IMG/VR virus record: IMGVR_UViG_3300036398_001591
Coordinates: 1-64,000 of that record
Direction: 5' to 3' (one strand)
Source: a virus
DNA: 64,000 bases
Below the pieces are notes generated by a model that worked only from the letters and a program-made list of their open reading frames with translations, searched no databases and was not told where the DNA came from. Shown one piece after another: positions 1,276 through 16,216 of the stretch. The position numbers were made by a program, and so were the translations under genes. Positions within the stretch are counted from its first letter, which is position 1, and every line of letters starts with the position of its first letter.

Positions 1276-2317
1276 CTTCTACCTCAATTTCCTTTTGAAT
1301 GATTTCTCCCGCCGCAACACGGTATTTGTCTTCGATGAATTTCCTAAATGTTGCATCTTTCAAAATTGACATCCAGAAGTCTTTAGTGTCTGTATCTTTA
1401 ATACGATACTTCTTTTCTTCTACTTCGCCGGTGGCCACATCCACTTTGCTATACCACCCATTTGAGGGTTTGATGACATGTCCGGATTCCAGCGCAATAT
1501 CAAGTAAGCCTGACCAACGGCTAATGCCACCGTCAAAAGATACAGAAACAGGGATTTTAGATTTTTCTTTAACATATCTACTCTTTTCTACGTTAATAAT
1601 AAAATTGTAACCAACGATTTCAGTTCCTTCTTTTTCTTGCTGGCGACCAATGATGAAAATATTGTCAGCAGAATAATAAGAACCCGTACCACCACCAACA
1701 ATATCTTTCGGGAACATACCAATTTCTTTGTATGTGTGATTCACCACAACCATCGGAATATCTTTGAGTGACAAGTGTGGAGTTACCATACGGAACAAAG
1801 ACTTAACTTGTTTAGCACGTGACATATCTGCAACGGATTTACCTTCAAGTGCATCATCAACTTCTTTCTTTGAAGCCAAGTTACCGATTGAATCGATAAC
1901 GATAATCAATCTTTCACCACGTTCAAGATTGGTGAGTTGTTGCATGATATCAAACTTTAATTGTTCAATGTCAGTGAGTGGTGTATGAAGAACACGATTA
2001 GTGTCGATACCAAAGCTATCAAAATAACTCTGCGGAGTACCAAATTCAGAATCGTAAAAAAGAAGTGCGGCATCAGGGTATTTGTCCAAGTAAGATTTGG
2101 CCATCAAAAGTGAGAATGCTGTCTTAAAATGTTTTGATGGACCCGCCCACATTGTAAGACCTGGTGTTAAGCCACCATCCAATTTACCAGACAACGCAAC
2201 GTTGATAATTGGTACAGAGGTTGGAATCATATCCTTATCCAAAAAGAATTTGGATTTTGCCAAAATGGCTGAATCTTTAATAGAACTGTTCTTTTTAATT
2301 TTGTCCAAAATGCTCAT
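1262..2317 (-). CDS. uvsX: UvsX RecA-like recombinase
   Basis: Strand-exchange protein for recombination-dependent replication and repair, working with UvsY and UvsW, both also in this window. 351 residues, usual for the family. Walker A-type loop GPSKHFKTAF near residue 60 and the Walker B strand LIIVIDSIGNLASKK are visible, followed by VVVNHTYKEIG and the DNA-binding loop region with GGGTGSYYSADN. An upstream in-frame extension exists, but the ATG at 2317 has AAAGGA at good spacing just after the polymerase stop codon, so I use it. Confidence 0.95.
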   Translation of the reverse strand: MSILDKIKKNSSIKDSAILAKSKFFLDKDMIPTSVPIINVALSGKLDGGLTPGLTMWAGPSKHFKTAFSLLMAKSYLDKYPDAALLFYDSEFGTPQSYFDSFGIDTNRVLHTPLTDIEQLKFDIMQQLTNLERGERLIIVIDSIGNLASKKEVDDALEGKSVADMSRAKQVKSLFRMVTPHLSLKDIPMVVVNHTYKEIGMFPKDIVGGGTGSYYSADNIFIIGRQQEKEGTEIVGYNFIINVEKSRYVKEKSKIPVSVSFDGGISRWSGLLDIALESGHVIKPSNGWYSKVDVATGEVEEKKYRIKDTDTKDFWMSILKDATFRKFIEDKYRVAAGEIIQKEIEVEDEPV

Positions 2318-2327
2318 AATTTTTCCT

Positions 2328-4850
2328 TTAATCGAATAGTGAGTTTGTTCGTTCCGTTGTCCAGTCCATACAATCAAGAATGACTTTAATTGGCTCTAGA
2401 AATGTTTTGTCGAATTGCATGTTGTAATCAATGCAATCTTGAAGACCAAATTCAGGAGGTAATCTTCCTGGAAATGATACTACATTTTCTTTGAATATGT
2501 TTGGTGTTTTTAGATAAGTAAATTTAATCTTTTCACCCTCTTGAATCAACGGATACTTCTTTGATAGACCTTTTTCTTCAAGGTACTTATTATATAGCAG
2601 AGCACCTCTTACGTGGATTGGTGTACCTTTCGAATATATGGTAGTCTTGTTTCCATATTCTTTCAGACCATTGATGCCACGTGGAAATGAAATATCTTCC
2701 ACATTTAACTTCTTGAATTCGGTTCGGAATGTATCAATGAATTTGTGCATGTCAGATTCCGTACCCTTCATCATAATCTGAAGTGCTTCTTTCATCTTCT
2801 CACGCACAGGCGCAGGCGTGGAAGACTTAATCATTTCCAGACCCATGACCTTCATGTCAGGTTCGGTATATTGAACACCTTCATTGTTATACACGTGCAT
2901 GATATAACGTTTCTTGGCAGTCCAGATACCTTTGTCAGCCAATGCTTCACGTTTCATTTGCATCTTTTGGTCATATGCGTGTACATAGTCTGCCAATTCA
3001 CCATATGATTTGTCGATGAATGGTTGAATCTTTTCTTCACAGATTTTATCCATAAAAGAAATGACTTTATTCTTATCAGAAGTGTCTTTAATAAACTTGT
3101 CAACCAATTCACTGAGACGGAGATAAATCGAATCTGTATCAGACGCAATCACATAGTCTTTATTGGTCTTCAACAAAGAGTTCATGTAACCATTGATCTT
3201 CCCTTCAATCCAACGAATAGAAAACTGGCCAGCAGTAGTGACACCCAAAGCCATCCGAAGGTCGTAAAATCTAAAATACTGAGAACCCAAAGCGCCATAA
3301 GCAGAATTGAGAGAGACTTTCTTAGCGAGTTGTAGGTTGTTGTATCTGGCGATACGCTTTTCAATTTCATACTTTTTGGAATCATCTTTTTCGGCCTCAT
3401 AATCTTTCTTGGCTTGAATCATCATCTTCTTAAACTTCTTACGATCCTCATACATTTCTTCCATCATCTTTGGCAAGAAGCCTTGTATATCGGTGCGGAA
3501 GAATTGACCGTTTGGAGTGATTGTTACATTTTCGAGAGTAGATAAATCAACTTCTTTTTTCAGAAGTTTATCAACAGTGACACCCTGTGAAAGAACATCA
3601 CGCATTTCTTGTGTGTAATTTCCGGGTTCAATCAGAGTCTCGGGTGAAATATTATACTGCATCATCAAGTGTGGATACAATGAGTTCAAGTCGAACGATG
3701 CAACCCAATTGTGAAGACCAACTTGTGGATCTTTTACGAAAGCACCTTCAAACGCTTCACTCTTTTCTTTGATAACACGTGGAGGAACCACAATGTTTTG
3801 ATTCATCAAGTGATTATATGTCAGAGCATCCCACATTCGTGTCTGTGCAAACACATCGTCATAGTTGGTTTTTGTGTCATAAGCCAGAGTCAGTGCAAGT
3901 TCTAATAACTTGAGTTTATCTTCAAGTTTCAGAATCAAATCAACGTCTTTGATGTTGTATTCAATAAAGAGTTGGTAGTTCAAACGATAAAGCTGGTGCA
4001 GGTTCTCATATTCTTCATATGAGATTTTACCTTCACCGAGTTCAAATTGTGCGATTGCGTCAAGGCGATAAGATTCTTGTGATTTGCCATTTGGTGAATA
4101 CCATTTATACAGTTCAAGATAATCGAGGTCGCCGACACCAACAAGTTCATAAACCGTCATTTTACGGTTCATAACAAATGCTTGGCGTTCAGAGATGATG
4201 TTCCACGGAGACAACTTCTTAGCCTCATCTTCACCGAGAACCTTACGCATACGATTTACAAGATATGGTACGTCAAAGAACTTGGTGTTCCAGCCAGTGA
4301 GTGCATCAGGACATTTCTCTTGCCAAAGTTTAAGGAAGAACTTGAGTAAGTGATATTCGTCTTTGCACTTCATGTAACGTTCTGTACCCTTGACCTCATA
4401 ATCACCACAGCCGAAAACGAACATATGCCCACCGATAAAACGGAGGGCAATAGCAGTAACAGGTTCATTGGCAAGATAAGGATCAGGGAAGCCGTTCTCT
4501 GAACCGACCTCAATATCGATAATTGCAATAGAAACTTTATCAAAGTCCCAATCAATCATTTCTTTGTGCTGTTCGCCGATGAATGCATATTCAAAACGAT
4601 TCTGACCATAAATTGTTTTACCGGATACACCTTCGAACTGACGTAGATAGTCACGTGCTTCACGCATCGTTCCGAATTTATGTGGTTGGAGATACACACC
4701 ATCTAGTGATGTGTAATTTGTAACCTTGCTTGACTTTTCGTATAGTGTTGGCTGGTATGGAATCTTTAGTTTCGTTCTTTTACCGTCAGTGACACCACGG
4801 TAAAGAATGTTGCTACCAACAGATTGTACGTTTGTGTAAAAAAGAGCCAT
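2328..4850 (-). CDS. 43: Family B DNA polymerase (T4 gp43)
   Basis: Replicative polymerase with proofreading exonuclease, 840 residues. Exo I motif (IIDIEVGSENG) lies near residue 110; the polymerase motifs are A (DLNSLYPHLMMQYN), B (KKVSLNSAYGALGSQY) and C (ASDTDSIYL). The C-terminus is consistent with a clamp-binding tail. The start overlaps the stop of the upstream Sm-like gene; uvsX follows 10 bases after the stop. It is slightly shorter than T4 gp43 but no domain is missing. Confidence 0.97.
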   Translation of the reverse strand: MALFYTNVQSVGSNILYRGVTDGKRTKLKIPYQPTLYEKSSKVTNYTSLDGVYLQPHKFGTMREARDYLRQFEGVSGKTIYGQNRFEYAFIGEQHKEMIDWDFDKVSIAIIDIEVGSENGFPDPYLANEPVTAIALRFIGGHMFVFGCGDYEVKGTERYMKCKDEYHLLKFFLKLWQEKCPDALTGWNTKFFDVPYLVNRMRKVLGEDEAKKLSPWNIISERQAFVMNRKMTVYELVGVGDLDYLELYKWYSPNGKSQESYRLDAIAQFELGEGKISYEEYENLHQLYRLNYQLFIEYNIKDVDLILKLEDKLKLLELALTLAYDTKTNYDDVFAQTRMWDALTYNHLMNQNIVVPPRVIKEKSEAFEGAFVKDPQVGLHNWVASFDLNSLYPHLMMQYNISPETLIEPGNYTQEMRDVLSQGVTVDKLLKKEVDLSTLENVTITPNGQFFRTDIQGFLPKMMEEMYEDRKKFKKMMIQAKKDYEAEKDDSKKYEIEKRIARYNNLQLAKKVSLNSAYGALGSQYFRFYDLRMALGVTTAGQFSIRWIEGKINGYMNSLLKTNKDYVIASDTDSIYLRLSELVDKFIKDTSDKNKVISFMDKICEEKIQPFIDKSYGELADYVHAYDQKMQMKREALADKGIWTAKKRYIMHVYNNEGVQYTEPDMKVMGLEMIKSSTPAPVREKMKEALQIMMKGTESDMHKFIDTFRTEFKKLNVEDISFPRGINGLKEYGNKTTIYSKGTPIHVRGALLYNKYLEEKGLSKKYPLIQEGEKIKFTYLKTPNIFKENVVSFPGRLPPEFGLQDCIDYNMQFDKTFLEPIKVILDCMDWTTERTNSLFD

Positions 4851-5164
4851 TAACCGGTGATGATTTGAGTTGGAGGGGTAATGATACCGGAGCCAAACAT
4901 CTGATTGTAGTTGTCAGAAATGTCCGATGCTGGTGTGTAATTGTATACAACATGTAGTGGTTCCACAAGAATAATTTCACCTTGTTTTTGTTGAGAGAAA
5001 GCTGGGAAAGGAACAAAACCCATCTGAGGTGAAGCTCCGGCAACTTTTGGTGGAACCATACGCAACTGTACTGGATTTTTAAGTTGCAATTGACCTTGCT
5101 GATTTACAGAAACATCAGCGATGACTTCTTCACCCGTTACCAATTTAATACCTTGAATATTCAT
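4850..5164 (-). CDS. Small Sm/Hfq-like beta-barrel protein (paralogue 1)
   Basis: 104 residues. The N-terminal half (IKLVTGEEVIADVSV then LKNPVQLRMVPP) follows the pattern 'K-x-x-(T/S)-G-E-x-I-A ... P' that is repeated in the gene at 37473-37865 (LKSGEDIIAYLEQV then VREPMVVLL). This pattern recalls the first strands of Sm-like barrels in small phage proteins. It overlaps the polymerase start by one base and is probably co-translated with it. The fold assignment is inference; RNA or protein binding is possible but not shown. Confidence 0.7.
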   Translation of the reverse strand: MNIQGIKLVTGEEVIADVSVNQQGQLQLKNPVQLRMVPPKVAGASPQMGFVPFPAFSQQKQGEIILVEPLHVVYNYTPASDISDNYNQMFGSGIITPPTQIITG

Positions 5165-5166
5165 AA

Positions 5167-5736
5167 TTATACCTCTGCGTTGAAAAAGAATGTTTGGAAC
5201 AATCGTCCATTATACACTGAATCACCAAACCCTGGCAACATACTTCTGTGGTAATATTCACCTCGATACATTACCAATCTATTGAAGATGTTGGACACCT
5301 GAACGATTGGTTCCCATCTATCCAAATCTGTTATTTCTTCTGTATTGTTGTTGTAATCAGTTGATGGTATCCCTGGATTGTACATCGAAATTTTAGACTC
5401 TTTATTTCGGTAGATTGCTGTTCCAGAATCTAATGGTGCATCCGGTGTCAGATAAAGTACCGCCGCCCAATTCGTAGGATCATGGTGTATCCACGTGCTA
5501 TCTTTGGCGGTTGTGTACTGGAATGCTGTATTGTATTGTTCTGGCCACCAAGTAATTTTTTTTCTTAGTATGTCCTCAAACAGCTTTTTGGCGTTGGTGT
5601 TGTGTTCTCCACGCATTATATCTGTCCTTACTCCTGGATAATTACCGGAAATGGTATAGGGTAAAGACAAGGCATAGTCTCTAACTTGTTCTGGGTTACC
5701 ATAAAAGTTATCGAAAATCATCAATGAAGGCGTCAT
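5167..5736 (-). CDS. 2OG-Fe(II) oxygenase-like protein (DUF6445-type)
   Basis: 189 residues. STWIHHDPTNWAAVLYLTP supplies a His-x-Asp pair inside a jelly-roll strand, and YRGEYYHRSMLPGFGDS followed by NGRLFQTFFF supplies the distal His and the Arg expected for 2-oxoglutarate binding. These match the prolyl-hydroxylase-like family often carried by T4-like phages. The substrate is unknown. It is the last minus-strand gene before the plus-strand block, whose first start codon is 64 bases away. Confidence 0.75.
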   Translation of the reverse strand: MTPSLMIFDNFYGNPEQVRDYALSLPYTISGNYPGVRTDIMRGEHNTNAKKLFEDILRKKITWWPEQYNTAFQYTTAKDSTWIHHDPTNWAAVLYLTPDAPLDSGTAIYRNKESKISMYNPGIPSTDYNNNTEEITDLDRWEPIVQVSNIFNRLVMYRGEYYHRSMLPGFGDSVYNGRLFQTFFFNAEV

Positions 5737-5771
5737 TCTAAACCTTAAATAGTTATATAGTTGTTCGGATA

Positions 5772-5779
5772 GCTAAATA
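5772..5779 (+). promoter_or_regulatory. Possible late promoter for the plus-strand block
   Basis: GCTAAATA lies 21 bases before the first start codon of the plus block. It resembles the CATAAATA, GATAAATA and CCTAAATA boxes seen upstream of minus-strand structural genes in this window. If real, the curli-like cassette is transcribed late by gp55-RNA polymerase. Weak single-box evidence. Confidence 0.35.
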
Positions 5780-5799
5780 CCAAATAAAAGGGGTACATT

Positions 5800-6078
5800 A
5801 TGGACTTTTTTAAGTTGGTGGCCGATGTTGGTTTTCCAATAGCGGCAGCCATAGCGGCTGGTTATTTTGTTTTTCTTACACTGAAATTCATTTTAGCAGG
5901 TGTCACAGGTTCTGTCAAGTCACTTAGTGGTATAATTACTGCTCTTGATAACCGGGTTAAAACAATGAACCATGATGTTATCAGAATCGACACACTAATG
6001 TCAAACGCACTAGGTGTCAAACCAGATGTTGACCGTATTGCCAGAGCAGACGGTAAAAATGATGCAAGGAGAGACTAA
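5800..6078 (+). CDS. Small membrane protein, holin-like (paralogue 1)
   Basis: 92 residues: a short amphipathic start, one strong membrane segment (VGFPIAAAIAAGYFVFLTLKF, about residues 10-31), then a helical tail that could form a coiled coil (IITALDNRVKTMNHDVIRID) and a charged C-terminus. This is the architecture of small phage holins of the BhlA/one-TM type. It has an AAAAGGGG ribosome site and is the first gene of the plus-strand operon. A clear paralogue is at 6351-6659. A role in lysis or as a membrane anchor is inference. Confidence 0.72.
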   Translation: MDFFKLVADVGFPIAAAIAAGYFVFLTLKFILAGVTGSVKSLSGIITALDNRVKTMNHDVIRIDTLMSNALGVKPDVDRIARADGKNDARRD

Positions 6079-6281
6079 TGTTATTTGTAGATTACGTATT
6101 TGATTTGATGCCTGATGGATCGATTCTTATGGATAAAGAACTTTCAGCCAAAAGTCTCCAAGTTAAAACTGGTGACCGTTTTGACGTTCATGTAAGTTTT
6201 GATGGAAGAATAATTTTTAGGAAAGTTCCAGATGTTAACAGAGAATCAAAAACAGATAATAGAAAATCTGAGACTGTCTGA
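6078..6281 (+). CDS. Hypothetical small protein
   Basis: 67 residues, starting in TAATG overlap with the previous gene and thus translationally coupled. The first 50 residues alternate beta-like strands (LFVDYVFDLMPDGSILM, then RFDVHVSFDGRIIFRKV) and the tail is polar. No known motif recognised. Its position between two holin-like paralogues suggests a shared function, but nothing in the sequence defines it. Confidence 0.6.
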   Translation: MLFVDYVFDLMPDGSILMDKELSAKSLQVKTGDRFDVHVSFDGRIIFRKVPDVNRESKTDNRKSETV

Positions 6282-6350
6282 ATTAGAAAAGGTTGAAAGG
6301 ATGAAATCTTTCACCTATAGAATAAAATTTTATTGGTATAAATTTAAAAA

Positions 6351-6659
6351 ATGGATAACCTTTCGGAGCTAATTAGCAAATATGGATTTCCTATTATCTC
6401 TGCCGCTGGTATGGGGTATTTCATATTCTATGTTTGGACATGGGTAACCAAAGAAATTAAACCTGTGTTAGGTGAGGCAAGTTCGGTTTTAATTGCTTTG
6501 ATTGACCGTGTTAGAATGTTAGACAATGATTTGATTAGACTAAACCAAAAAATTAATATTGTTCTAATGATGAGAGAGGTCAATAAAAAAGATGAAGAAA
6601 TTAATAAAAATGTCACTGATGGCAGTTATCGCCATGATGACGACAACAAGCAAAGCTGA
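6351..6659 (+). CDS. Small membrane protein, holin-like (paralogue 2)
   Basis: 102 residues. ISKYGFPIISAAGMGYFIF aligns with VADVGFPIAAAIAAGYFVF of the first paralogue, followed by the same helical stretch (VLIALIDRVRMLDNDLIRLN versus IITALDNRVKTMNHDVIRID). One predicted membrane helix and a charged tail. The gene end overlaps the CsgF-like start by 68 bases. The duplication could reflect a holin/antiholin pair or two scaffold subunits; this is inference. Confidence 0.72.
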   Translation: MDNLSELISKYGFPIISAAGMGYFIFYVWTWVTKEIKPVLGEASSVLIALIDRVRMLDNDLIRLNQKINIVLMMREVNKKDEEINKNVTDGSYRHDDDNKQS

Positions 6660-7041
6660 ATTGGCATTTTCATTCAAATCGCCGGCATTTTCAGGTATTG
6701 GATATTCGTCACACGTGCAGACTATAGAAAATACGGAACGTGTACGAAAAGATGCAATAGAATCTGCAAAACTCCAAGCAATTAAAGATGCGGCAACTGC
6801 GGCAAACAATACGAACTTGGTGAAGTTTTTAAACAACTTTGAATCACGTGTGTATGCACAATTATCTTCACAGTTGGTGAACAATCTTTTTGGTGAAAAT
6901 CCAAAAGAATCTGGAACTGTTGTTATTTCAGGTAACACAATTAAGTATTCGAAAACAGGTGATGAAATTAATTTAACTGTGACAGGTCAAGATGGTACAG
7001 TCACACAAGTTATCATCCCAGTAGCACAGTTTAAATTCTAA
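6592..7041 (+). CDS. csgF: CsgF-like curli assembly factor
   Basis: 149 residues with a Sec signal peptide (MKKLIKMSLMAVIAMM, cleavage probably after TTTSKA). The mature start AELAFSFKSPAFSGIGY carries the CsgF signature F-x-F-x-x-P-x-F-x-G, which in E. coli inserts into the CsgG channel. The C-terminal part (GTVVISGNTIKYSKTGDE, then VTGQDGTVTQVIIP) matches the CsgF tail. Length is close to E. coli CsgF (138). It directly precedes csgG with a TAATG overlap. It should act at the outer membrane as the nucleator-coupling collar on the CsgG pore. Confidence 0.85.
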   Translation: MKKLIKMSLMAVIAMMTTTSKAELAFSFKSPAFSGIGYSSHVQTIENTERVRKDAIESAKLQAIKDAATAANNTNLVKFLNNFESRVYAQLSSQLVNNLFGENPKESGTVVISGNTIKYSKTGDEINLTVTGQDGTVTQVIIPVAQFKF

Positions 7042-7841
7042 TGCAACGCTTAATATACACTATTCTATTGTCGGCTTTTTTAACAGGCTGCGCCGCTGTT
7101 CCTGTAATGTTTCCAGATCAAGCACTGGAAGCTGAAAAAGTTGCGCCTACAAAATTTAAAATACCTTTTCCTGAACCAGAAAGTGGACAACCAATCGTTG
7201 TTGCCGTTTATCAGTTTATGGATAAAACGGGTCAAAGAAAAGATTCTGCAACTATTGCAAAATTATCATCTGCTGTTACACAGGGTGCAGAATCATTATT
7301 ATTAAAAGCACTAGCAGATGTTGGAGATGGACAGTGGTTTAGAATTGTTGAAAGAGTTGGATTGGACAATCTTTTGAAAGAGCGGCAATTAATACGTTCA
7401 GCAAGAGATGAAATGAAAGACTCTACTAATCTTAGGCCTATACTTTTTGCAGGAATGATTATTGAAGGTGCTATAGTTTCTTATGATACTAATAAGCGTA
7501 CAGGTGGTTTTGGATGGAGGTACTTAGGCATTGGACCGAGTACACAATATCAAGAAGATATGGTTACCGTTTCTCTACGGGCAGTGAACGTACAAACTGG
7601 TGAAGTAATACTTACGGTGAATACACAAAAAACTATTCTGAGTGTTGCAACATCAATCTCTACATTTAAGTTTTTCGATTCAGGAACAAAAGCATTTGAA
7701 AATGAGATTGGAAGCACATCAACTGAGCCAGGAATTTATGCAGTGAAAGCGGCTATCGATTTGGCAGTTGAGGAATTAGTATATCAGGGTGAGCGAAAAG
7801 GATTGTGGAAATTTAAACAATTAAAAACAGAAGAGGAATAA
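7041..7841 (+). CDS. csgG: CsgG-like outer-membrane lipoprotein secretion channel
   Basis: 266 residues, near the 277 of E. coli CsgG. Lipoprotein signal peptide with lipobox LTGC at residues 14-17. PIVVAVYQFMDKTGQRK and WFRIVERVGLDNLLKERQLIR are the conserved N-terminal CsgG strands and helix; LFAGMIIEGAIVSYDTN, then YQEDMVTVSLRAVNVQTGEV, correspond to the membrane-hairpin flanks. In bacteria CsgG forms a nonameric pore exporting amyloid subunits. Here it sits between csgF-like and curlin-repeat genes, so the channel, adaptor and substrate are adjacent. Confidence 0.92.
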   Translation: MQRLIYTILLSAFLTGCAAVPVMFPDQALEAEKVAPTKFKIPFPEPESGQPIVVAVYQFMDKTGQRKDSATIAKLSSAVTQGAESLLLKALADVGDGQWFRIVERVGLDNLLKERQLIRSARDEMKDSTNLRPILFAGMIIEGAIVSYDTNKRTGGFGWRYLGIGPSTQYQEDMVTVSLRAVNVQTGEVILTVNTQKTILSVATSISTFKFFDSGTKAFENEIGSTSTEPGIYAVKAAIDLAVEELVYQGERKGLWKFKQLKTEEE

Positions 7842-7843
7842 AA

Positions 7844-8551
7844 ATGAAAAAGACGATACTCTCTAGTATCATGTCTTTGTTATTCGTTGCCAGCGCATTT
7901 GCGACAAATAGTGGTGGCAACTCAGTGTATATTGACCAAACTAACTCAGATAATACATCAATTAGTATAACACAAACTGGTTCTGGAAACCAAGTTGGTG
8001 ACAGAACCAATCTAATCACACCAGCATTTGTTATCGATGGTAACTCAATGCAATTAACAATTAACCAAGATGGTATGAACAACTCCATTATTGGTAATTT
8101 TATTGGTGGTGATTCTACAGCGGCCATCACACAGACGGGTTCCGGTAACATATTTAAATTGAATCAGGGTAACTTTGGTACCAACGGTGGTACCATGAAT
8201 GTGAACAAGACCGGTGACAACAACACCGTTGAATTCAATATGGGTACTTCACATATAACCAACAACTATCAATATACTTTAGCGATTGCTGGTAATTTGA
8301 ACAATGTGTTGTCTAATATGAACAGTAAATATATCGAAAACAATATTAGTGTTCTTGGTAACTCAAATAATGTAACAACGAATCAGATTGGTGCTCACGG
8401 GTCCCCGTCTTTTGCTGGACATAAAATTACAGCAAATATTATTGGTGATAGTAATGCCGTCTCCATTACACAAAATGGAACCACAACACCAAACATAATT
8501 ACGCTGAATGTTACAGGTTCTAGCACTACTACTACTATTGTTCAGCATTAA
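7844..8551 (+). CDS. Secreted curlin-repeat (CsgA/CsgB-like) amyloid subunit
   Basis: 235 residues with a signal peptide (cleavage about SAFA). The mature chain is Asn/Thr/Gly/Gln-rich and carries several imperfect curlin repeats of the type S-x5-Q-x-G-x-x-N, such as ISITQTGSGNQVGD, QLTINQDGMNNSIIGN, AAITQTGSGNIFKLNQG and AVSITQNGTTTPN. No cysteine in the mature part. This is the expected substrate of the upstream CsgG/CsgF pair. Ribosome site GAGGAA. The last 44 bases overlap the next gene in another frame. Larger than E. coli CsgA (151). Confidence 0.87.
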   Translation: MKKTILSSIMSLLFVASAFATNSGGNSVYIDQTNSDNTSISITQTGSGNQVGDRTNLITPAFVIDGNSMQLTINQDGMNNSIIGNFIGGDSTAAITQTGSGNIFKLNQGNFGTNGGTMNVNKTGDNNTVEFNMGTSHITNNYQYTLAIAGNLNNVLSNMNSKYIENNISVLGNSNNVTTNQIGAHGSPSFAGHKITANIIGDSNAVSITQNGTTTPNIITLNVTGSSTTTTIVQH

Positions 8552-9536
8552 TTGCTATGGTGGTATCGGTAAGGTAACTGAAGAAAAAGGTAATGCTGAG
8601 ATAGTTAGACAGAAATCAAAGTTAGGAGCCAAGATAAATTCTGGCATTGAATCGAATGATATTGTTCAAACTGTCAATGGTGTTGTTGGCATAACCTTTG
8701 AAGATGACACAAAGGTTCGGGTAACAGAACATTCAAAATTGGTTATTGACGATTTTGTTTATGACCCCAAATCTAAAGGTGCCGGAAAATTAGCAATGAA
8801 AGTTGCTCTCGGCACTGTTCGTTATGCCTCCGGTAGTATAGCAAAAGATAACGTTAAGAACGTAGCAATCAATACTCCGACCGCAACAATTGCGGTTCGT
8901 GGAACGGCATTCACTATGACGGTGGATGAAATTGGACAATCATTGATTGTATTATTACCAAACGTTGATGGTTCAGTTGGTGAAATTGAAGTTCGTACAT
9001 CAATGGGTTCAGTTGTATTAAATCAGGCATTTCAGGCCACGGTAACAACAGGTGCTGAAATCAAACCATTGAAACCGACACTACTCAATTTAAGTGAATC
9101 TGCAATCGATAATATGTTGATTGTTAAACCACCAAAAGAAATACTTAAACAGATGATTGAGGAAAACTCAAAAACATTTGATGCTCTTGCATTTAACGAA
9201 CTTGATAGAAATGCACTTGACATTAAAGTGTTTGTTGATGCATTAAAATATGATGAACTAAACATCAATGAACTAGATACAAATTATCTCACAAATGCAT
9301 TAGACACTCTTACAATGAATGCCTTTCAGGTGGGTTATAATGCATTAACACAATTATATGTCTTTGACCGAAATAGTTATTGGCAACTCAATCGTCATAT
9401 ACGTCAAGATTTTACCATGCTGATAAATAAAGATCAGGGCTATGATATCACTCTAATCCAAGACGGTACTACATTGTTTATTAAAAATATGGATAATACA
9501 ACAAACAAAACAATTATCAAACAAGGTTTAAAATGA
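8508..9536 (+). CDS. Secreted FecR-domain protein
   Basis: 342 residues. Signal peptide MLQVLALLLLLFSINCYGG; a FecR domain spans about residues 20-165, with GKVTEEKGNAEIVRQ, IVQTVNGVVGITFEDDTKV and the hallmark AINTPTATIAVRGTAFTM. The remaining 170 residues are Asn/Asp/Leu-rich (e.g. AFNELDRNALDIKVF) with no known fold recognised. The start lies inside the curlin gene and the stop overlaps the cyclase start (ATGA). In proteobacteria, periplasmic FecR-domain proteins are often encoded next to CHASE2 cyclases, as here. Confidence 0.85.
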   Translation: MLQVLALLLLLFSINCYGGIGKVTEEKGNAEIVRQKSKLGAKINSGIESNDIVQTVNGVVGITFEDDTKVRVTEHSKLVIDDFVYDPKSKGAGKLAMKVALGTVRYASGSIAKDNVKNVAINTPTATIAVRGTAFTMTVDEIGQSLIVLLPNVDGSVGEIEVRTSMGSVVLNQAFQATVTTGAEIKPLKPTLLNLSESAIDNMLIVKPPKEILKQMIEENSKTFDALAFNELDRNALDIKVFVDALKYDELNINELDTNYLTNALDTLTMNAFQVGYNALTQLYVFDRNSYWQLNRHIRQDFTMLINKDQGYDITLIQDGTTLFIKNMDNTTNKTIIKQGLK

Positions 9537-11593
9537 AAAAAATATTATTGTCACCGTGGACAGCCATCATTACCTTGTTGTTTTTTGTTTGTATTCGTTT
9601 TTATGATTCACCATTCATTGAGTCCGTTAGACTCAGATATTTTGACACTCTAATAACTTCAAAAGAAACCACTGTGTCCCAACAAGTCCACGTGGTAAAT
9701 ATAGATGACGAAACTATTCGACAAAAAGGACAATTTCCTTTCCCACGTGGAGAATATGCCTCCATTATTGATACTCTGTATAGGCATGGTGCTGGGTTGG
9801 TTGTTTTTAATATCTTCATGCCTGATGGTGATAGGTTTGGTCAAGATTCTAAACTTGCTTTCACACTAAAACAAAATCCTGTAGTATTTCCACATACAGC
9901 AACTAATGAGGATGTTCCAAAATCTATTGCTTTTCGTCCTGGTGTTTCAGTCATAGGTGAAGGTGATCCAGGAATTCATTATAAAAATGTACAACCGAAT
10001 GTGAGGTCCGTAAATGAAAATGCCTCTGGTATTGGTATTGTTAATACTATTCCCGAAATCGATGGTGTGGTCCGCAGAGTTCCAATGGTCGTTAGTGCAG
10101 ACGCAAAACTCTACCCAAGCATCTCCCTCGAAACCCTCAGAGTTGCATCAGGTGACCCCTCTTTCCAGGTTAAGGTTGTCGATGGAGCAATTGAAGCTGT
10201 CCGAATTCCACAGTTTGGAAAAATTCCAACAGATAACCTCGGTAGAATCTGGGTGGATTGGTCTTCAAGACCAACCGAACACTCCCTTGCTAAGTTGCCA
10301 GAGGACTTCAAAGGTGGAATCGTTATTGTCGGTCTTACCGCAAGGGGACTCAACAATCCCGTTGCAACTGGTAGAGGAGAAGTTTATCCGCACTACCTGC
10401 AAGCCTCTGTACTAGACACGGCTATTGCTGGTACAAACATCAATCGTCCAGATTGGGCTGATGGTGCTGAAATCTTAGCAATTGCTGGCGCTGGTATACT
10501 CTTACTCATACTCACACGATGGACTTATGTTGGTCTTGCATCAATACTTGTACTCACACTTGGTGCCATTTTTGGTTCGCAGTATGTGTATGCACAGAAT
10601 GCTTGGCTCTTTGACATTACAGCATTCGTAACTGCAATCATTCTTGTTGGTCTACATGCATATGGTGTTAAGTTTGTCTCCGAGTTTTTGCAGAAAATGC
10701 AAATCAAGAAACAATTTGGAACATATCTTTCACCAGCTTTGGTTGAAAAACTTCAAAAAAATCCAGAACTACTACAACTTGGTGGTGAATCACGTGAACT
10801 ATCGATCATGTTCACTGACGTTCGTGGCTTCACTTCAATCTCTGAACACTATGGTAAAGATGTACAAGGTTTGACCAAAATTATGAACCGATACATGACA
10901 GCAATGACAGCAAAGATACTTGAAAATAATGGAACTTTGGATAAGTACATCGGAGATGCACAGATGGCATTTTGGAATGCACCTTTGGATGAACCAAATC
11001 ATGCAAAGCTGGCGGTCAAAACTGGACTGGAAATGATGGGTAGTCTAGATGCGTTCAATAAAGAAGTTACGGCTGAAGGTGTTCCTCCATTTGGCATGGG
11101 TCTTGGTATCAATACTGATACTGTCGTGGTTGGAAATATGGGGAGCAATATGCGTTTTGATTATACTTGTCTCGGTGATGGCGTCAATCTTGCCGCAAGA
11201 CTAGAAGGTCAGAGTAAACCTTATGGTGTGAAGATTGTTATTGGTGCGAATACCAATAAACAGGTTGAAGATGAATATGCAACACTAGAACTTGATTGCA
11301 TTGCCGTCAAAGGAAAGAAAGAGGGTATACATGTCTACACCGTCCTAGGTAGACACGATTGGTGGATGGAGAATTCAGCGTATGTTGTCAATACTCAACA
11401 ACATGAGAAGATGTTGGAACTCTACAGGATGCAGAAGTTTGATGTAGCTATCAAATTCTGCCAAGACCTAAAAGGTTCATTCCTCGGTGAAATGGACCAC
11501 TACTACGAACTTTGGATTGAACGTTGTGAAGAAATGAAGGCAAAGGACTTGCCTAAAGATTGGGACGGAGTTTACCGTGCAACAAGCAAGTAA
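9533..11593 (+). CDS. CHASE2-domain adenylate/guanylate cyclase (class III)
   Basis: 686 residues. N-terminal membrane anchor (9-20), periplasmic CHASE2 sensor (about 25-300; VVNIDDETIRQKGQFPFPR, then VVFNIFMPDGDRFGQD), three membrane helices (about 305-385), then a class III cyclase domain (about 425-610): metal-binding Asp in SIMFTDVRGFTSISEHYG, DKYIGDAQMAFWNAP with the second Asp, and LGDGVNLAARLEG with the catalytic Asn and Arg. It appears intact and probably active. Last gene of the plus block. In bacteria such proteins turn periplasmic signals into cAMP or cGMP; in a phage it could change host second-messenger levels. Confidence 0.93.
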   Translation: MKKILLSPWTAIITLLFFVCIRFYDSPFIESVRLRYFDTLITSKETTVSQQVHVVNIDDETIRQKGQFPFPRGEYASIIDTLYRHGAGLVVFNIFMPDGDRFGQDSKLAFTLKQNPVVFPHTATNEDVPKSIAFRPGVSVIGEGDPGIHYKNVQPNVRSVNENASGIGIVNTIPEIDGVVRRVPMVVSADAKLYPSISLETLRVASGDPSFQVKVVDGAIEAVRIPQFGKIPTDNLGRIWVDWSSRPTEHSLAKLPEDFKGGIVIVGLTARGLNNPVATGRGEVYPHYLQASVLDTAIAGTNINRPDWADGAEILAIAGAGILLLILTRWTYVGLASILVLTLGAIFGSQYVYAQNAWLFDITAFVTAIILVGLHAYGVKFVSEFLQKMQIKKQFGTYLSPALVEKLQKNPELLQLGGESRELSIMFTDVRGFTSISEHYGKDVQGLTKIMNRYMTAMTAKILENNGTLDKYIGDAQMAFWNAPLDEPNHAKLAVKTGLEMMGSLDAFNKEVTAEGVPPFGMGLGINTDTVVVGNMGSNMRFDYTCLGDGVNLAARLEGQSKPYGVKIVIGANTNKQVEDEYATLELDCIAVKGKKEGIHVYTVLGRHDWWMENSAYVVNTQQHEKMLELYRMQKFDVAIKFCQDLKGSFLGEMDHYYELWIERCEEMKAKDLPKDWDGVYRATSK

Positions 11594-11594
11594 T

Positions 11595-11670
11595 TGGTGC
11601 TCCGACTAGGAATTGAACCTAGACTCAATGAATTATGAGTTCACTGCTTTACCATTAAGCTATCGGAGCA
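11595..11670 (-). tRNA. tRNA-Met(CAT)
   Basis: Full cloverleaf: acceptor TGCTCCG/CGGAGCA, anticodon loop CTCATAA, T-loop TTCAATT, encoded CCA. One of three CAT tRNAs; it could also be a lysidine-modified tRNA-Ile. Confidence 0.9.
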
Positions 11671-11672
11671 TT

Positions 11673-11760
11673 TGGTGCGGGAAGAGGGATTCGAACCCTC
11701 ACGCTTTTTAAATTGCGGCGGGTTTTAAGCCCGCTGTGTCTACCATTCCACCATACCCGC
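11673..11760 (-). tRNA. tRNA-Leu(TAA)
   Basis: 88 nt, class II with a long variable arm (CGC...GCG), anticodon loop CTTAAAA, T-loop TTCGAAT, CCA encoded. The 5' end is two bases from the inverted repeat at 11762. Confidence 0.93.
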
Positions 11761-11761
11761 A

Positions 11762-11860
11762 TGTCCATTTTGAAACACACTATTTGCAAATATCCCCCCG
11801 CCTAGAACAGGTTTTAGGACCCATCCACCATGGTTGGGCAAATGTATTTCAAAATGGACA
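11762..11860 (-). ncRNA. Structured RNA candidate closed by a 14-bp inverted repeat
   Basis: Perfect arms TGTCCATTTTGAAA (11762-11775) and TTTCAAAATGGACA (11847-11860) enclose a second stem ATTTGC/GCAAAT (11782-11787 with 11838-11843) and two short hairpins (CCCA...TGGG and CCTA...TAGG on the minus strand). The whole could fold as a branched, tRNA-sized RNA. No ORF fits. It lies between the Ro60-like gene and tRNA-Leu. Folding is by eye; function unknown. Confidence 0.55.
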
Positions 11861-11873
11861 CCTTTCGGTGTCC
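11856..11873 (-). terminator. GAAA-tetraloop hairpin after the Ro60-like gene
   Basis: GGACACC-GAAA-GGTGTCC, 7 bp, lies 7 bases past the stop codon and is followed by ATTTTG. The U-tract is short, so it may be a processing or stability hairpin and not a strong terminator. Its 3' arm shares bases with the inverted repeat at 11847-11860, so the two folds compete. Confidence 0.6.
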
Positions 11874-11879
11874 ACGCCA

Positions 11880-13319
11880 TTACAGCACTTTGTAACGGTC
11901 ATCCATGATGGTTTTAAGCATCACAGTTTCTGGTGTAAAAGTATCTAGGTCACCAGCAAGGAGTGGCTTAACCACGGCTGGAGAGAAACCAGACACCAGT
12001 GCTGTACCAGACTTGTCAAACTTCACTGGCGAGTTGCCATATGAAGCATTCAAGTTCCAGAACACAACCTTTGGCAAGGTGTATCCTGCGGCTTCGTACT
12101 TTCGTGCGATCATTTGGATAGCAGAATCATCGTGGTTCACACATTGATTGAACTGCATATCTGACAGAATCAATACCATTTCTGGCATTTCATTCTGTGG
12201 AACACCGGCACCTACTGCGGTAGCAAGGATTTTTGCAAATGCCTTGCTCAAGTCAGTGCTCATAGCCCAGTTAGACTTGACCATTCGATCAATCTTTTGG
12301 TTGATGTTACCTTTCAGGTGCAACAACTCTGGGTTAGTTGAGAAGGTCAAGAATGTATCCTTGAACTTACCAGTATTCTTGTCTGCAAGATACAATCCCA
12401 AAGAGACTGCAACTTCCATACATGACAACTTGCTGTTTGAACCGTGTCCACCAGCTGGGCATGACATAGAACCAGAAACGTCTACCAGAGGTAGGATGTT
12501 TCCATCGCCAACGTAGTTTGGTAGTGCTTCCCATTGCTTTTGGATCAAGTCCAATTCAGTCTTGTCAAACTTCACTCCGTAGAAGTTGATACGACCCTTC
12601 AACACATCATATGGATACACAGCGCCAGCGTTGACTTTTACTTCAACGGTGCGATCTTTTGGATCCTTCATCAACTCAGCAACATACTTACCATATTCTG
12701 GTGTGTTACGGTTGAAAGCCTTCTTGTAACGGGAAGCCGCTACGGAAGGAACATGTGAGAAGTTAATGGAATCCCAGTCCTTTGCACACATGTTTGTTTC
12801 AACAACTTTGGTCATTTCAACCAAAGACTTACGGTAGAACTTTGGTGACATTCCGAAGAATGTACGGATTTCTGCCGCAAGTGGACCTTGGCGAGGTGTC
12901 CACTTAGCCGCCAAACCATTCTTTTCACGGAGTGCGTTACCAAGAATAGTGTATGCGGCTTCTTTCAGTGCTTTGGTCTTGAAGACAAACAAATCATCCC
13001 AACGACCCAATTCTGGCACTTTAGCCAACAGAGCCTTAGCGGCTTCTGTATCAGTGTTTTCCAGATACACTAGGATATCACGGAACAACTGGCGTTCACC
13101 AGCACCGCCACGTGCGTCACGTAGCCATGCGGCAACTCGTAGAGCCAATTCACGGTTCTCTGCCAAGGCGGCCGCAAATGCAGGCTTAATATCTTTTCCA
13201 CGGGATGCACCCGCATTGTAAAACAAATCAACCACCGCATTGGCGGTTGACTTGCGAGCCTTCATACCGTTTGTGGTACGGGCTTCTTGGTTCTTAACAG
13301 CTTCGACAAATGTTGACAT
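11880..13319 (-). CDS. Ro60-like RNA-binding protein (TROVE/DUF2828-type helical ring plus vWA)
   Basis: 479 residues. The N-terminal two thirds are helical repeats with VAAWLRDARGGAGERQLFR, LGRWDDLFVF and AAKWTPRQG, the signature layout of DUF2828 proteins, which share domain organisation with Ro60/TROVE. The C-terminal third is a von Willebrand A domain with an intact MIDAS motif (LVDVSGSMS). Ro60 binds Y RNAs and misfolded RNAs. The ATG at 13319 is chosen for its AAGGAG site; the longer frame runs through element E1. Three structured tRNA-like elements lie directly upstream and are probably co-transcribed. Assignment to the Ro superfamily is good; the RNA ligand is inference. Confidence 0.82.
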   Translation of the reverse strand: MSTFVEAVKNQEARTTNGMKARKSTANAVVDLFYNAGASRGKDIKPAFAAALAENRELALRVAAWLRDARGGAGERQLFRDILVYLENTDTEAAKALLAKVPELGRWDDLFVFKTKALKEAAYTILGNALREKNGLAAKWTPRQGPLAAEIRTFFGMSPKFYRKSLVEMTKVVETNMCAKDWDSINFSHVPSVAASRYKKAFNRNTPEYGKYVAELMKDPKDRTVEVKVNAGAVYPYDVLKGRINFYGVKFDKTELDLIQKQWEALPNYVGDGNILPLVDVSGSMSCPAGGHGSNSKLSCMEVAVSLGLYLADKNTGKFKDTFLTFSTNPELLHLKGNINQKIDRMVKSNWAMSTDLSKAFAKILATAVGAGVPQNEMPEMVLILSDMQFNQCVNHDDSAIQMIARKYEAAGYTLPKVVFWNLNASYGNSPVKFDKSGTALVSGFSPAVVKPLLAGDLDTFTPETVMLKTIMDDRYKVL

Positions 13320-13338
13320 AATGAACTCCTTTTCAATC

Positions 13339-13462
13339 AACAGGTTAAACTTTTTGCGGACCATTGTGCTACCATTACACTAGACCCCTAAGGGAGCCGG
13401 AATCGAACCGGTCTTTCGGTTTTTCGTTGCATAAATTGTTTTGCGGAACTTAACCTAAAAAC
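13339..13462 (-). ncRNA. Structured element E1, permuted tRNA-like
   Basis: Ends pair as AGGTTAA/TTAACCT (13342-13348, 13450-13456). On the minus strand the order is: T-arm CCGG-TTCGATT-CCGG (13397-13411), a short closed acceptor-like hairpin (TCCC-TTA-GGGG), then a D-arm-like GTGTAATGGTAGCAC (13366-13380). The 3' half of a tRNA thus precedes its 5' half, and the RNA ends sit where the anticodon arm would be. It ends 20 bases before the Ro60-like start codon, so it is probably in its leader. The topology resembles that described for bacterial YrlA Y RNAs; homology is not shown. Confidence 0.65.
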
Positions 13463-13576
13463 AACAGAGTAGTTTGATTGCCACCGTGGCACATCATCCG
13501 AGTCTCTTTCGAGTTTTGGTGGATAATGCTGGAATCGAACCAGCTAGTTTTTGTTTTGCTGAACCTACTCTAAAAC
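13463..13576 (-). ncRNA. Structured element E2, permuted tRNA-like with acceptor stem and CCA
   Basis: Ends pair as AGAGTAG/CTACTCT (13466-13472, 13565-13571). Minus-strand order: T-arm GCTGG-TTCGATT-CCAGC (13528-13544), ATTATCC (13521-13527), A-CCA (13517-13520), a GAAA-loop hairpin (13500-13516), then GGATGAT (13493-13499), which pairs with ATTATCC to rebuild a 7-bp acceptor stem, then a D-arm-like TGCCACGGTGGCA. This is a circularly permuted tRNA layout opened at the anticodon stem. No anticodon can be read. Confidence 0.68.
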
Positions 13577-13586
13577 TTTCAAAAAT

Positions 13587-13758
13587 AACAGGATAGTTTT
13601 CTACTTTTTGATTACAGAGAGAAAATCGAAACTCTCCTTGCTTAGTATGTTTCAGTGTCAAACCTTCAACGCACTCGGTCAAGACTCCGTGCTCCAGTTT
13701 TCTACCACAGTGACTAAACGATCCAGTATTAGTGGGATGCTGTACCTATCCTAAAAAC
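13587..13758 (-). ncRNA. Structured element E3, promoter-proximal, with degenerate tRNA-like parts
   Basis: Ends pair as AGGATAG/CTATCCT (13590-13596, 13746-13752). Inside, on the minus strand, are hairpins ACTAA...TTAGT, GCACGG...GTGC, GTTT...AAAC and a T-loop-like GAGAG-TTTCGATTTT-CTCTC. Same flanks as the other copies (GTTTTTAG, then GTACAGC). It is the first element after the sigma70 promoter at 13780-13808. The longest copy; no clean tRNA can be drawn. Confidence 0.55.
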
Positions 13759-13779
13759 TTATATAATCTCCATATAAAG

Positions 13780-13808
13780 ATTATATCACGTTAAGTGTAA
13801 CTTGGCAA
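13780..13808 (-). promoter_or_regulatory. Sigma70-type promoter for elements E3-E2-E1 and the Ro60-like gene
   Basis: Minus strand TTGCCA - 17 bases - TATAAT. The predicted start is about 13773, roughly 15 bases before E3. A partial element-like sequence (GTTTTTAGGCAA...TTGCC) overlaps its -35 box. Confidence 0.8.
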
Positions 13809-13840
13809 GGCTTTTTTTGCATTGTTGCCTAAAAACAACA

Positions 13841-13918
13841 TGGTGCCTCAGGGGGGAGTCGAGCCCCCAAAATCCAGTGTTTGAGACTGGCACGTATACC
13901 AATTCCGTCACCGAGGCA
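13841..13918 (-). tRNA. tRNA-Leu(CAA)
   Basis: Anticodon stem-loop CCAGT-CTCAAAC-ACTGG, Leu-type D-arm, CCA encoded. The variable loop is short, which is atypical for class II Leu tRNAs; Leu(TAG) at 19408 shows the same feature. Confidence 0.88.
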
Positions 13919-13924
13919 TTTATA

Positions 13925-14692
13925 TCATTTTTTAATTGTCCGTTCCATCTTTTCCATATTAGCACAAGTGTATTTTTGGTAACTCGACAACATATGTTTA
14001 GGCATCGGAAAGTATTTGAACTGAGTTGTAGTATGTGCCAATTCATCAGCCACGGCAAGAAAACTTTTAGGTTTTCCAGTACCCACATTCCATATGCCTG
14101 ATTCCGATACATCTAGGAATTTTATGTGGGTATCAACAACTTGTTCAACGGGAACAAAATCTCTTAGATAATTTTCCGAACCCTCAAATAAATTTATTGT
14201 ATTATATTGTTTTATTTGTTGTGAAAATTTATGATAGGGACTAGCCTGTTCACCTTTATGATCTTCACCTTTTCCATACACATTGAAGTACCTAAATCCT
14301 TGTACTTTAATGTTCCATACTTTACTTTGTGTATATCTTTCAAACATATACTTCGACCATGCATATGGAGTTCTTGGATCAACAGGAGATTCTTCATTGA
14401 ATTCATTATTGAGTCCATACACAGATGCGGAAGACGAATACTGAAAATCTATATCGTATGTGTTGCAGGCTTCCAATAACCATGTTGAAAAATCATAATT
14501 CTGTCGCATGATTTTTTCCACATTACGTTCTTCGGTGGAGGAAATCGCACCAATGTGCATTACTACATCATAATTGAATCCTGGAAATTTTTCACCCCAT
14601 TCAAATCCATCAACCTGAAAACCCAATATTTTCAGTTTAGAATAAAGATTCGAACCAATAAAGCCACGATGGCCAGTTACAAGTATTTTCAT
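13925..14692 (-). CDS. NAD-dependent sugar epimerase, HldD-like (ADP-heptose 6-epimerase)
   Basis: 255 residues, extended SDR fold. Rossmann motif VTGHRGFIGSNL at the start, catalytic Ser/Tyr/Lys in YSSSASVYG and PYAWSKYMFE, then FRYFNVYGKGE. It sits downstream of a cupin gene, a PfkB-type sugar kinase and an adenylyltransferase, which are the remaining enzymes needed for ADP-heptose. That context supports an HldD role over UDP-glucose epimerase, although the fold alone cannot decide. Shorter than E. coli HldD (310) at the C-terminus. Product could feed the GT9-like gene at 59802. Confidence 0.78.
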   Translation of the reverse strand: MKILVTGHRGFIGSNLYSKLKILGFQVDGFEWGEKFPGFNYDVVMHIGAISSTEERNVEKIMRQNYDFSTWLLEACNTYDIDFQYSSSASVYGLNNEFNEESPVDPRTPYAWSKYMFERYTQSKVWNIKVQGFRYFNVYGKGEDHKGEQASPYHKFSQQIKQYNTINLFEGSENYLRDFVPVEQVVDTHIKFLDVSESGIWNVGTGKPKSFLAVADELAHTTTQFKYFPMPKHMLSSYQKYTCANMEKMERTIKK

Positions 14693-15045
14693 TTTTGTGA
14701 ATCACCGGGTAATACACGATAATTATCTTCAACACTATCTGGCGTACTAACCTCAATGATAGTGCCACCTTTAATACAAATTAATTGATGTGGTTCGAGA
14801 GGTTCATTTCTCCATACATTACCAGATCGTAATACAGTTTTCCTAATGCTGGCATCTTGTGTCATAATATAATTTACTTCAAATTCTCCACTTAGCACAT
14901 ACCAAGTTTCATCTTTTTGAGCATGGAAGTGCATACTGAATTTTGCACCTTCATTAAAGTGAAGTAACTTACCACAATACTTATCATTTGATGCCCAAAT
15001 TTCTTCTGAGCCCCAACCTTTTTCGACTTTACCTTGCAAACGCAT
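14689..15045 (-). CDS. Cupin-fold sugar isomerase-like protein
   Basis: 118 residues. Single cupin barrel with metal-site pattern FSMHFHAQKDETWYVLSGEF (H-x-H-x5-E) and a second motif, PHQLICIKGGTIIEVS. It resembles the C-terminal domain of type II mannose-6-phosphate isomerases and WbuC-like cupins. The ATGA-type overlaps with the kinase and epimerase genes make it part of the heptose cassette. Substrate not defined. Confidence 0.75.
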   Translation of the reverse strand: MRLQGKVEKGWGSEEIWASNDKYCGKLLHFNEGAKFSMHFHAQKDETWYVLSGEFEVNYIMTQDASIRKTVLRSGNVWRNEPLEPHQLICIKGGTIIEVSTPDSVEDNYRVLPGDSQK

Positions 15046-15784
15046 TTATTTCTCCAAGTGTAGGAGCATAGACTCCCGTATGTTGTACAGTAATCGATGC
15101 AGACTTAATTGCAAATTTGATACTGTTATCTATATTATTTGTTTGGAGGTAATCGTAAACGAAAGATGCGAGAAAAGTATCACCGGCACCACAAACGTCA
15201 ACAACATCAATAAGTGGTACATCATATTTTCTACCGTCCCACGTGACACCATTGGCACCCATAGTGACAATTAAATTTATTGGTAAACTTTTTGCATTAG
15301 CATATTCAATAGAATTTATTTTAACAATAGCACCATTGAAACGTGACAAATCAGTTTTTTTTGTATCAACGAAAACAGGAATTCCTGTGTCGATCATTTC
15401 TTCAATCAATTCATATGAAACGGTACCTTTGTTGTAGTCACTGATTACGATTGCATCATAAGATGGTGGAATTGCAGTTTCAAATGTGATAGGTTCAGAC
15501 ACCATATCATCATCGATTCTCAATAGGTGTTGACCACTTTTCTTATCAATGATGCGAATTTTCTTTGAGGTAAGATTGTGCAAATATTGCACATTGCATC
15601 CGAGATTAATCAGATTGCGATAAACGTTGCCTGCCATACCGGGAAGACATTTTTCTTCCAGTATTTTGAAAATTGGCACAGGTGCTTCTGGACTCAAACG
15701 ATCCACTAACCCATATTGATATACATCTAAACAATCATCACCGATTAATAATATGTTGAATTTTTTTGGTTGTTGACCACTCAT
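15029..15784 (-). CDS. PfkB-family sugar kinase, HldE kinase-domain-like
   Basis: 251 residues. The N-terminal strand KKFNILLIGDDCLDVYQYG matches the RfaE/HldE start, and DVCGAGDTFLASFVYDYL is the PfkB signature with the catalytic Asp of GAGD. In E. coli HldE the kinase and adenylyltransferase are fused; here they are separate overlapping genes. A start at 15784 is chosen to fit the family; an upstream ATG (15796) is possible and neither has a clear ribosome site. Expected to phosphorylate heptose 7-phosphate at C1. Confidence 0.82.
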   Translation of the reverse strand: MSGQQPKKFNILLIGDDCLDVYQYGLVDRLSPEAPVPIFKILEEKCLPGMAGNVYRNLINLGCNVQYLHNLTSKKIRIIDKKSGQHLLRIDDDMVSEPITFETAIPPSYDAIVISDYNKGTVSYELIEEMIDTGIPVFVDTKKTDLSRFNGAIVKINSIEYANAKSLPINLIVTMGANGVTWDGRKYDVPLIDVVDVCGAGDTFLASFVYDYLQTNNIDNSIKFAIKSASITVQHTGVYAPTLGEINAFAR

Positions 15785-16127
15785 TTCGATACTCATAAAA
15801 AATAACAGGAATAAGATCACTGCCAATTATAGGCTTACTTTCGTAATCCGAACCTTTGACCATTATATCACATCCACAAATTAAATCAATCAATTCTTGG
15901 TCATTTTTGAAAATGTATACCTCATTTACCGATTTTAAATTACTTAACAGTAGGAGTCTTTCATTTTCATTATTGATTGGTCTAGATTCACCTTTTAATT
16001 GTTTGACTCTACTATCACTATCAATACCAACAACCAAAATGTCACCGAGACTTTTGGCATAGTTTAATAGTCCAATATGACCAACATGTAAAATGTCGAA
16101 TGTTCCATTAACAAATATTTTTTTCAT
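15738..16127 (-). CDS. Nucleotidyltransferase, HldE adenylyltransferase-domain-like
   Basis: 129 residues. KKIFVNGTFDILHVGHIGLL holds the H-x-G-H motif, and the chain continues with VVGIDSDSRVKQLKGESRPI as in RfaE2 enzymes. It overlaps the kinase gene by 47 bases. The ATG at 16127 follows tRNA-Phe by 12 bases; the longer frame would run into that tRNA. It should transfer AMP to heptose 1-phosphate. Confidence 0.85.
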   Translation of the reverse strand: MKKIFVNGTFDILHVGHIGLLNYAKSLGDILVVGIDSDSRVKQLKGESRPINNENERLLLLSNLKSVNEVYIFKNDQELIDLICGCDIMVKGSDYESKPIIGSDLIPVIFYEYRNEWSTTKKIQHIINR

Positions 16128-16139
16128 ACAAATATATAT

Positions 16140-16216
16140 TGGTGCCAACTAGAGGAATCGAACCTCTTTCCACGGTTCTTCAGACCGCCGCTATGACCAC
16201 ATCAGCTAAGTTGGCA
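16140..16216 (-). tRNA. tRNA-Phe(GAA)
   Basis: Anticodon loop CTGAAGA, acceptor TGCCAAC/GTTGGCA, T-loop TTCGATT, CCA encoded. Confidence 0.93.

Follow-up and report, generated by a model that had tools for sequence, protein, structure and literature searches.

Genes for curli (type VIII) secretion have been described in several phages. CsgF and CsgG were found in pelagimyophages, and sibling capture was proposed (Zaragoza-Solas et al. 2020; PMC7029224). The pore was then reported in phage Melnitz, with a proposed role in lysis (Buchholz et al. 2022; PMC9004378), and the gene order 'HK'-CsgF-CsgG-CsgA/B-FecR-AC ('HK', histidine kinase; AC, adenylate cyclase) was reported in SAR11 phages (Wittmers et al. 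2022; PMC9599517). The window analyzed here, a stretch of 64,000 nucleotides (positions 1 to 64,000 of IMG/VR record IMGVR_UViG_3300036398_001591, which has 82,555 bases), contains a block of co-oriented curli-type genes at 5800-11593, as determined from a listing of open reading frames (ORFs) and profile searches. The block is a further member of the published phage curli kind, from a different phage lineage. We believe that it is probably a complete type VIII secretion module that would export fibers, signal by cyclic AMP (cAMP) through a host receptor, and change the surface of the infected cell. The original prediction, made from the DNA sequence alone, had already read the block as a phage-borne curli export and cyclase unit. 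That reading held up, but the newness that it implied did not (PMC7029224, PMC9004378, PMC9599517).

The module closely resembles those of the described phages. As in the pelagiphage modules, which are without CsgE, CsgC, and CsgD, one or two small upstream genes are followed by CsgF, CsgG, a CsgA/B-type protein, FecR, and an adenylate cyclase, co-oriented and in that order; unlike them, the window has no second curlin between FecR and the cyclase and has an added AbrB-like ORF (PMC9599517). Synteny with HTVC008M (KC465899) and Melnitz (MZ577097) is near gene-for-gene, with 38-42% identity for the cyclase and 43-47% for CsgG, although these two phages have a second curlin gene and infect SAR11 and OM43 hosts, respectively. 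The phage curli module extends beyond the SAR11/OM43 phage clade, to judge from the number of viral cyclase stretches and from the major head protein family of related records (both described below).

The module also shares homologous CsgG, CsgF, and curlin repeats with csgBAC/csgDEFG of E. coli. It differs from the E. coli genes in that the operon includes FecR and a cyclase, and no CsgE (the gate of CsgG in E. coli) was detected. CsgC and CsgE had been described as absent; this stands for CsgE in the 82.5-kb record, and neither CsgC nor CsgD was searched for.

A curli-type operon in a T4-like phage

The block contains homologs of the curli pore and its collar. Every gene named in the original prediction was found where it had been placed, but the ORFs number eight and not seven (Table 1). 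The tight overlaps were also borne out: one base is shared at 6078 and at 7041, and ATGA lies at 9533-9536; in addition, TM2 and CsgF overlap by 68 bases and the curlin and FecR genes by 44. Profile searches, chosen beforehand as a possible refuter, returned both CsgG and CsgF. Among the Pfam families expected, CsgF, CsgG, FecR, CHASE2, and Guanylate_cyc scored above their gathering scores, but Curlin_rpt scored below. CsgG reached 182.9 bits with PF03783 (cut-off 20.8) and aligned with solved CsgG over residues 1-259 (phmmer, 6e-46; residues 1-255 for 3x2r_D). The LTGC lipobox noted earlier near its N-terminus is correct, and Cys17 is invariant across 20 homologs. Based on the score, the lipobox, and the alignment along the full channel, we assign the predicted protein to the PF03783 family. 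CsgF reached 59.1 bits with PF10614 (cut-off 25.8), and phmmer of CsgF against PDB sequences gave no match to solved CsgF.

Table 1. ORFs of the curli-type block, with positions in the window.
Feature	Position	Strand	Basis
TM1, 92-aa single-transmembrane (TM) protein	5800..6078	+	phrog_18771 2e-35
AbrB/MazE-N-like small protein, 67 aa	6078..6281	+	MazE_antitoxin E 0.033, below cut-off
TM2, TM1 paralog, 102 aa	6351..6659	+	phrog_18771 1e-31; TM1/TM2 alignment
CsgF homolog with signal peptide	6592..7041	+	PF10614 6.4e-16
CsgG homolog, outer-membrane lipoprotein channel	7041..7841	+	PF03783 6.4e-54; lipobox LTGC17
Secreted curlin-like (CsgA/B-type) repeat protein, presumed fiber subunit	7844..8551	+	NCBIfam CsgA 6e-5; PF07012 0.013
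Secreted FecR-domain protein with predicted C-terminal beta domain	8508..9536	+	PF04773 1.8e-7
CHASE2-transmembrane-class III adenylate cyclase, conserved C-terminal tail	9533..11593	+	PF05226 2.3e-39, PF00211 5.5e-18

The presumed fiber subunit is a secreted curlin-like protein. Its PF07012 score (15.8 bits) falls short of the cut-off (20.7) for the curlin-associated repeats of CsgA/CsgB, and its match to NCBIfam CsgA is far under the equivalog cut-off. Because both cut-offs were missed, we call the protein curlin-like and not CsgA. The motif Q-x-G-x-x-N occurs three times, against 0.24 expected, and 15 of 10,000 shuffled sequences reached three. Invariant Q, G, and N columns occur throughout the family, and a profile of the viral family picks up curlin ORFs adjoining bacterial csgG. 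The protein has a signal peptide-like N-terminus, and its structural model is beta-rich (predicted local distance difference test [pLDDT] 85; predicted template modeling score [pTM] 0.81).

The operon is carried by a T4-like aquatic phage. A T4-type DNA polymerase, UvsX, portal, sheath, terminase, and major head protein were found in the same record. The curli block lies on the strand opposite to the neighboring phage genes, as might be seen if it were an assembly chimera or bacterial contamination, and a chimeric join near 5740 or 11600 had been feared. No such join was seen when assemblies were compared: a second contig matches the window at 100% identity over 1-15838, and a more divergent one (86.7% identity) is unbroken over 3285-9537. 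Together with the T4-like genes in the record and the presence of the module in the cultured phages HTVC008M and Melnitz, this leaves practically no chance of an artifact. We rejected chimerism and contamination on the contig comparison, raw read mapping aside.

A search for a T4-type late promoter (TATAAATA) 5' of the operon found none. A major head protein of the same family as in the window's record was present in six of the nine related records that were tested, the longest of which has 344 kb; a comparison of the tape-measure family PF20155 across related records was uninformative and was set aside.

Conservation in viruses and relatives in bacteria

The module is conserved as a unit. We surveyed related phage contigs for the gene order, as had been proposed, and the unit recurs. 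In viral loci found through CsgG that had enough flanking sequence, CsgF, the curlin, FecR, and the cyclase were present in 20 of 20, TM1 in 18, and TM2 in 19. In loci found through the cyclase that had room on both sides, CsgG, CsgF, the curlin, and FecR were present in 34 of 35, and TM1 and TM2 in all 35; the two sets share some contigs. The cyclase search returned at least 596 confirmed viral stretches. A second curlin between FecR and the cyclase was found in about a third of loci (20/64), and the AbrB-like ORF was found in 22 of 64 well-flanked loci, making it an optional part of the module. Among annotated phages, relatives of TM1, FecR, and the full-length cyclase occur only in HTVC008M (two records) and four Melnitz isolates; CsgG has one further occurrence, in a Salmonella phage record of 1.5 kb that is unannotated. 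The genes of the module are thus nearly inseparable, with FecR and the cyclase no less constant than the pore.

A small number of bacterial curli operons also include FecR and the cyclase, which differs from published accounts. A scan of genome contigs with the CsgG alignment returned 80 loci. Three of these have the same csgF-csgG-curlin-FecR-CHASE2 cyclase set as the window: L122 and L123, both from Caulobacteraceae metagenome-assembled genomes (MAGs), and L125, from a 706-kb contig of Hyphomonas sp. TMED17. The L122 and L125 modules are embedded among ordinary chromosomal genes, and unlike the window, none of the three genomes has TM1 or TM2. In comparison, csgF-csgG is present in 20 ordinary curli operons of Caulobacterales, with nearby curlins in 19, and none of the 20 has FecR or a cyclase of the phage type. 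The three operons qualify the view that FecR and the cyclase lie outside bacterial curli operons, and they provide a phage-free comparator for the link of these two genes to curli.

The phage module and the three bacterial operons share a CsgG clade. In the CsgG tree, the phages group with L122, L123, and L125 (100/99), and 25 other bacterial CsgGs lie outside this clade. Within it, the three bacterial sequences nest with two phage rows, so that transfer could have gone either to or from alphaproteobacteria. The cyclase tree separates the window from HTVC008M and Melnitz, which share a clade; the window's own clade is without the cultured representatives, and the tree gives no clear branching order for the two phage clades and the three bacterial cyclases.

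Phage-type curli modules were also found in MAGs labeled Pirellulales, Flavobacteriales, Pelagibacter, and Sphingobacteriales (L121, L124, L126, and L127). We did not count these as bacterial because the same MAGs hold phage-type TM1/TM2 genes. They are probably phage contigs in MAG bins, and a trap for misreading as bacterial curli.

The TM pair belongs to the curli module. Among 50,697 phage records, TM1 was found only in six curli-bearing ones. It has a conserved, cytoplasmic-looking helix (LDNRVKTMNHDVIRID) and a DARRD C-terminus. Neither TM1 nor TM2 matched a histidine kinase in Pfam, PHROGs, or NCBIfam. If the small upstream genes of the pelagiphages correspond to TM1/TM2, the 'histidine kinase' label (PMC9599517) has no support from these searches, which gave no kinase (DHp or ATPase) domain. 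The AbrB/MazE-N-like protein may be a DNA-binding regulator. In several loci (L007-L009, L050, L055-L059, L079, L088, and L091), the genes for TM2 and TM1 are downstream of the cyclase, on the opposite strand and convergent with it, and the AbrB-like ORF often accompanies them. Because TM1/TM2 can have this position, linkage within the module is kept without a strict operon structure.

The constancy of the module bears on a role of the pore in lysis. As proposed for Melnitz (PMC9004378), CsgG and CsgF would form a gated lysis or depolarization device that times release, with a holin-like TM pair and an incidental curlin. TM1 and TM2 are indeed small proteins with a single TM segment, and the original prediction had called them holin-like. 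They have a GFPI-type N-terminus, and their matches to phrog_4898 holin (E 0.037-0.045) and YvrJ (0.11) are all sub-threshold, leaving nothing convincing. A bare pore would need neither a curlin nor FecR nor a cyclase, yet all three are in every well-flanked locus found through CsgG. Moreover, the TM pair is missing from the bacterial sister operons, where a role in lysis would not be expected, and in annotated phages that pair is restricted to the curli module. We consider a lysis device unlikely.

Signaling proteins and possible functions

The cyclase has the complete residue set of a class III adenylate cyclase. Class III adenylate cyclases use two metal-binding Asp residues, a Lys and a Thr or Asp that specify adenine, an Asn, and an Arg. 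The window cyclase has D429, D475, K471, T545, N552, and R556 at these positions. Among 83 viral cyclases, D429, K471, and R556 are present in all, D475 in 82 (one gap), and N552 in 70; the T545 position is T, D, or S (HTVC008M has S, Melnitz D), and Melnitz has S in place of N552. We read this as an ATP-type pattern because K471 and T545 align with those of the CyaC and CyaB adenylate cyclases. The earlier suggestion of cAMP or cGMP signaling is thereby narrowed to a predicted cAMP output and away from cGMP. Neither the window's record nor any of 10 related records yielded a cyclic nucleotide (cNMP)-binding domain, although these records may be incomplete; a putative host receptor for cAMP is therefore implied.

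Five loci contain stand-alone ORFs of about 100-128 aa (L079:2809-3108, L063:2053-2439, L076:15968-16333, L118:12123-12476, and L093:571-945) that are homologous only to the C-terminal tail of the cyclase (profile 563-676) and have no catalytic domain. Their position is directly upstream of CsgF in several loci, and they are possibly a regulator.

The FecR-domain protein appears to be secreted and not of the anti-sigma type. It starts with a signal peptide-like segment, and FecR is the sole domain detected. The cytoplasmic N-terminal part, TM helix, and FecI partner of anti-sigma FecR proteins were not seen; the search for a FecI-like protein covered the eight operon proteins and not the rest of the record. 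The structural model (pLDDT 75) matches the PupR/FecR-type periplasmic signaling domain 6ovk (E 4.7e-5), with a weaker match to the cell-surface anchoring domain 5ix9 (E 0.014). FecR and CHASE2 cyclase genes had been said to pair often in proteobacteria. This was not the case in the loci compared: among the closest alphaproteobacterial cyclase loci that are not in curli modules, 11 were compared, and none had a FecR of the phage type within about 1 kb (short flanks; viral FecR profile only).

FecR could also point to import. In this reading, nutrients or cofactors (iron carriers, for example) would enter through CsgG as an open channel, and FecR would provide the connection to iron. This was suggested previously (PMC7029224 and PMC9599517), and the missing CsgE gate and the name of FecR are in keeping with it. 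However, uptake would need neither a curlin nor CsgF, and the 'iron' link is inherited from the name only, because the secreted protein showed the FecR domain alone. Import seems to us quite improbable.

The C-terminus of FecR weakly resembles curlin ends. A last strand ending in hydrophobic-x-hydrophobic-x-Q was found in 70/75 FecR proteins, 52/76 curlins, 20/72 CsgF, 0/75 CsgG, and 0/83 cyclases, and comparison of the FecR C-terminus with the curlin gave an hhalign E of 0.015. A curlin-type match was the best domain at the FecR C-terminus in 28 of 75 sequences, against none of 75 reversed and one of 75 shuffled, with scores of at most 11 bits. These scores are weak, and we did not accept the region as a true curlin repeat; the resemblance is suggestive and a lead. 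The same tail underlies the idea that FecR and the CHASE2 cyclase are a dedicated sensor of curli secretion, in which FecR would plug or read CsgG in place of CsgE and switch the cyclase, so that export is reported as cAMP. The feedback unit would have been exchanged with alphaproteobacteria, in either direction, and TM1/TM2 added by phages. This idea is tentative, and we regard it as rather doubtful.

Based on the gene content and conservation described above, we believe that the module probably serves fiber export from the infected cell. During infection, CsgG would form a channel through the outer membrane, with CsgF as its collar; the curlin-repeat protein would be secreted out of the cell and assemble as fibers. 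The FecR protein would be periplasmic or surface-located, and the CHASE2 adenylate cyclase in the inner membrane would read a periplasmic cue, possibly FecR or the state of secretion. The cAMP produced would act through the putative host receptor. The benefit could be a fiber coat or aggregation, by which competing phages would be excluded or neighboring hosts retained, rather than lysis. Some observations weigh against fiber export: the curlin-like model matched no PDB fold, a search of the record (which may be incomplete) gave no CsgE, and Melnitz-infected cells showed no clumping (PMC9004378).

Coating, aggregation, lysis, and a block to super-infection have nearly all been proposed before, and the sequence cannot choose among them. 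A change in the surface of the infected cell is, in our view, the most likely purpose, ahead of lysis. Lysis and import are less likely because the fiber, FecR, and cyclase genes are always retained, and opening of the outer membrane at lysis is the purpose that we favor least, since these genes invariably accompany the pore.

Genes neighboring the module

Several other genes in the window are on the minus strand. There are 27 tRNA genes at 11595-23847, for nearly all amino acids, including three for Leu and three for Met (cat). We also looked in the window for a riboswitch, as for the Melnitz transfer-messenger RNA (tmRNA); Rfam at the gathering threshold returned only tRNAs. Amid the tRNA genes is a gene for a TROVE/Ro60-like RNA-binding protein (phrog_850; 11880-13364), and DNA 87-90% identical to it is also found near the curli module in contigs L007-L009. 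A cluster at 13925-16148 contains ORFs for a nucleotide-sugar epimerase (phrog_540) and for cupin-like, sugar-kinase-like, and nucleotidyltransferase-like proteins. The cluster resembles a pathway for ADP-heptose or lipopolysaccharide precursors, which suggests envelope modification in a Gram-negative host. An RCC1-like repeat protein of 882 aa (phrog_4219, 6e-93) is encoded at 60889-63537 and is possibly a tail or adhesion protein.

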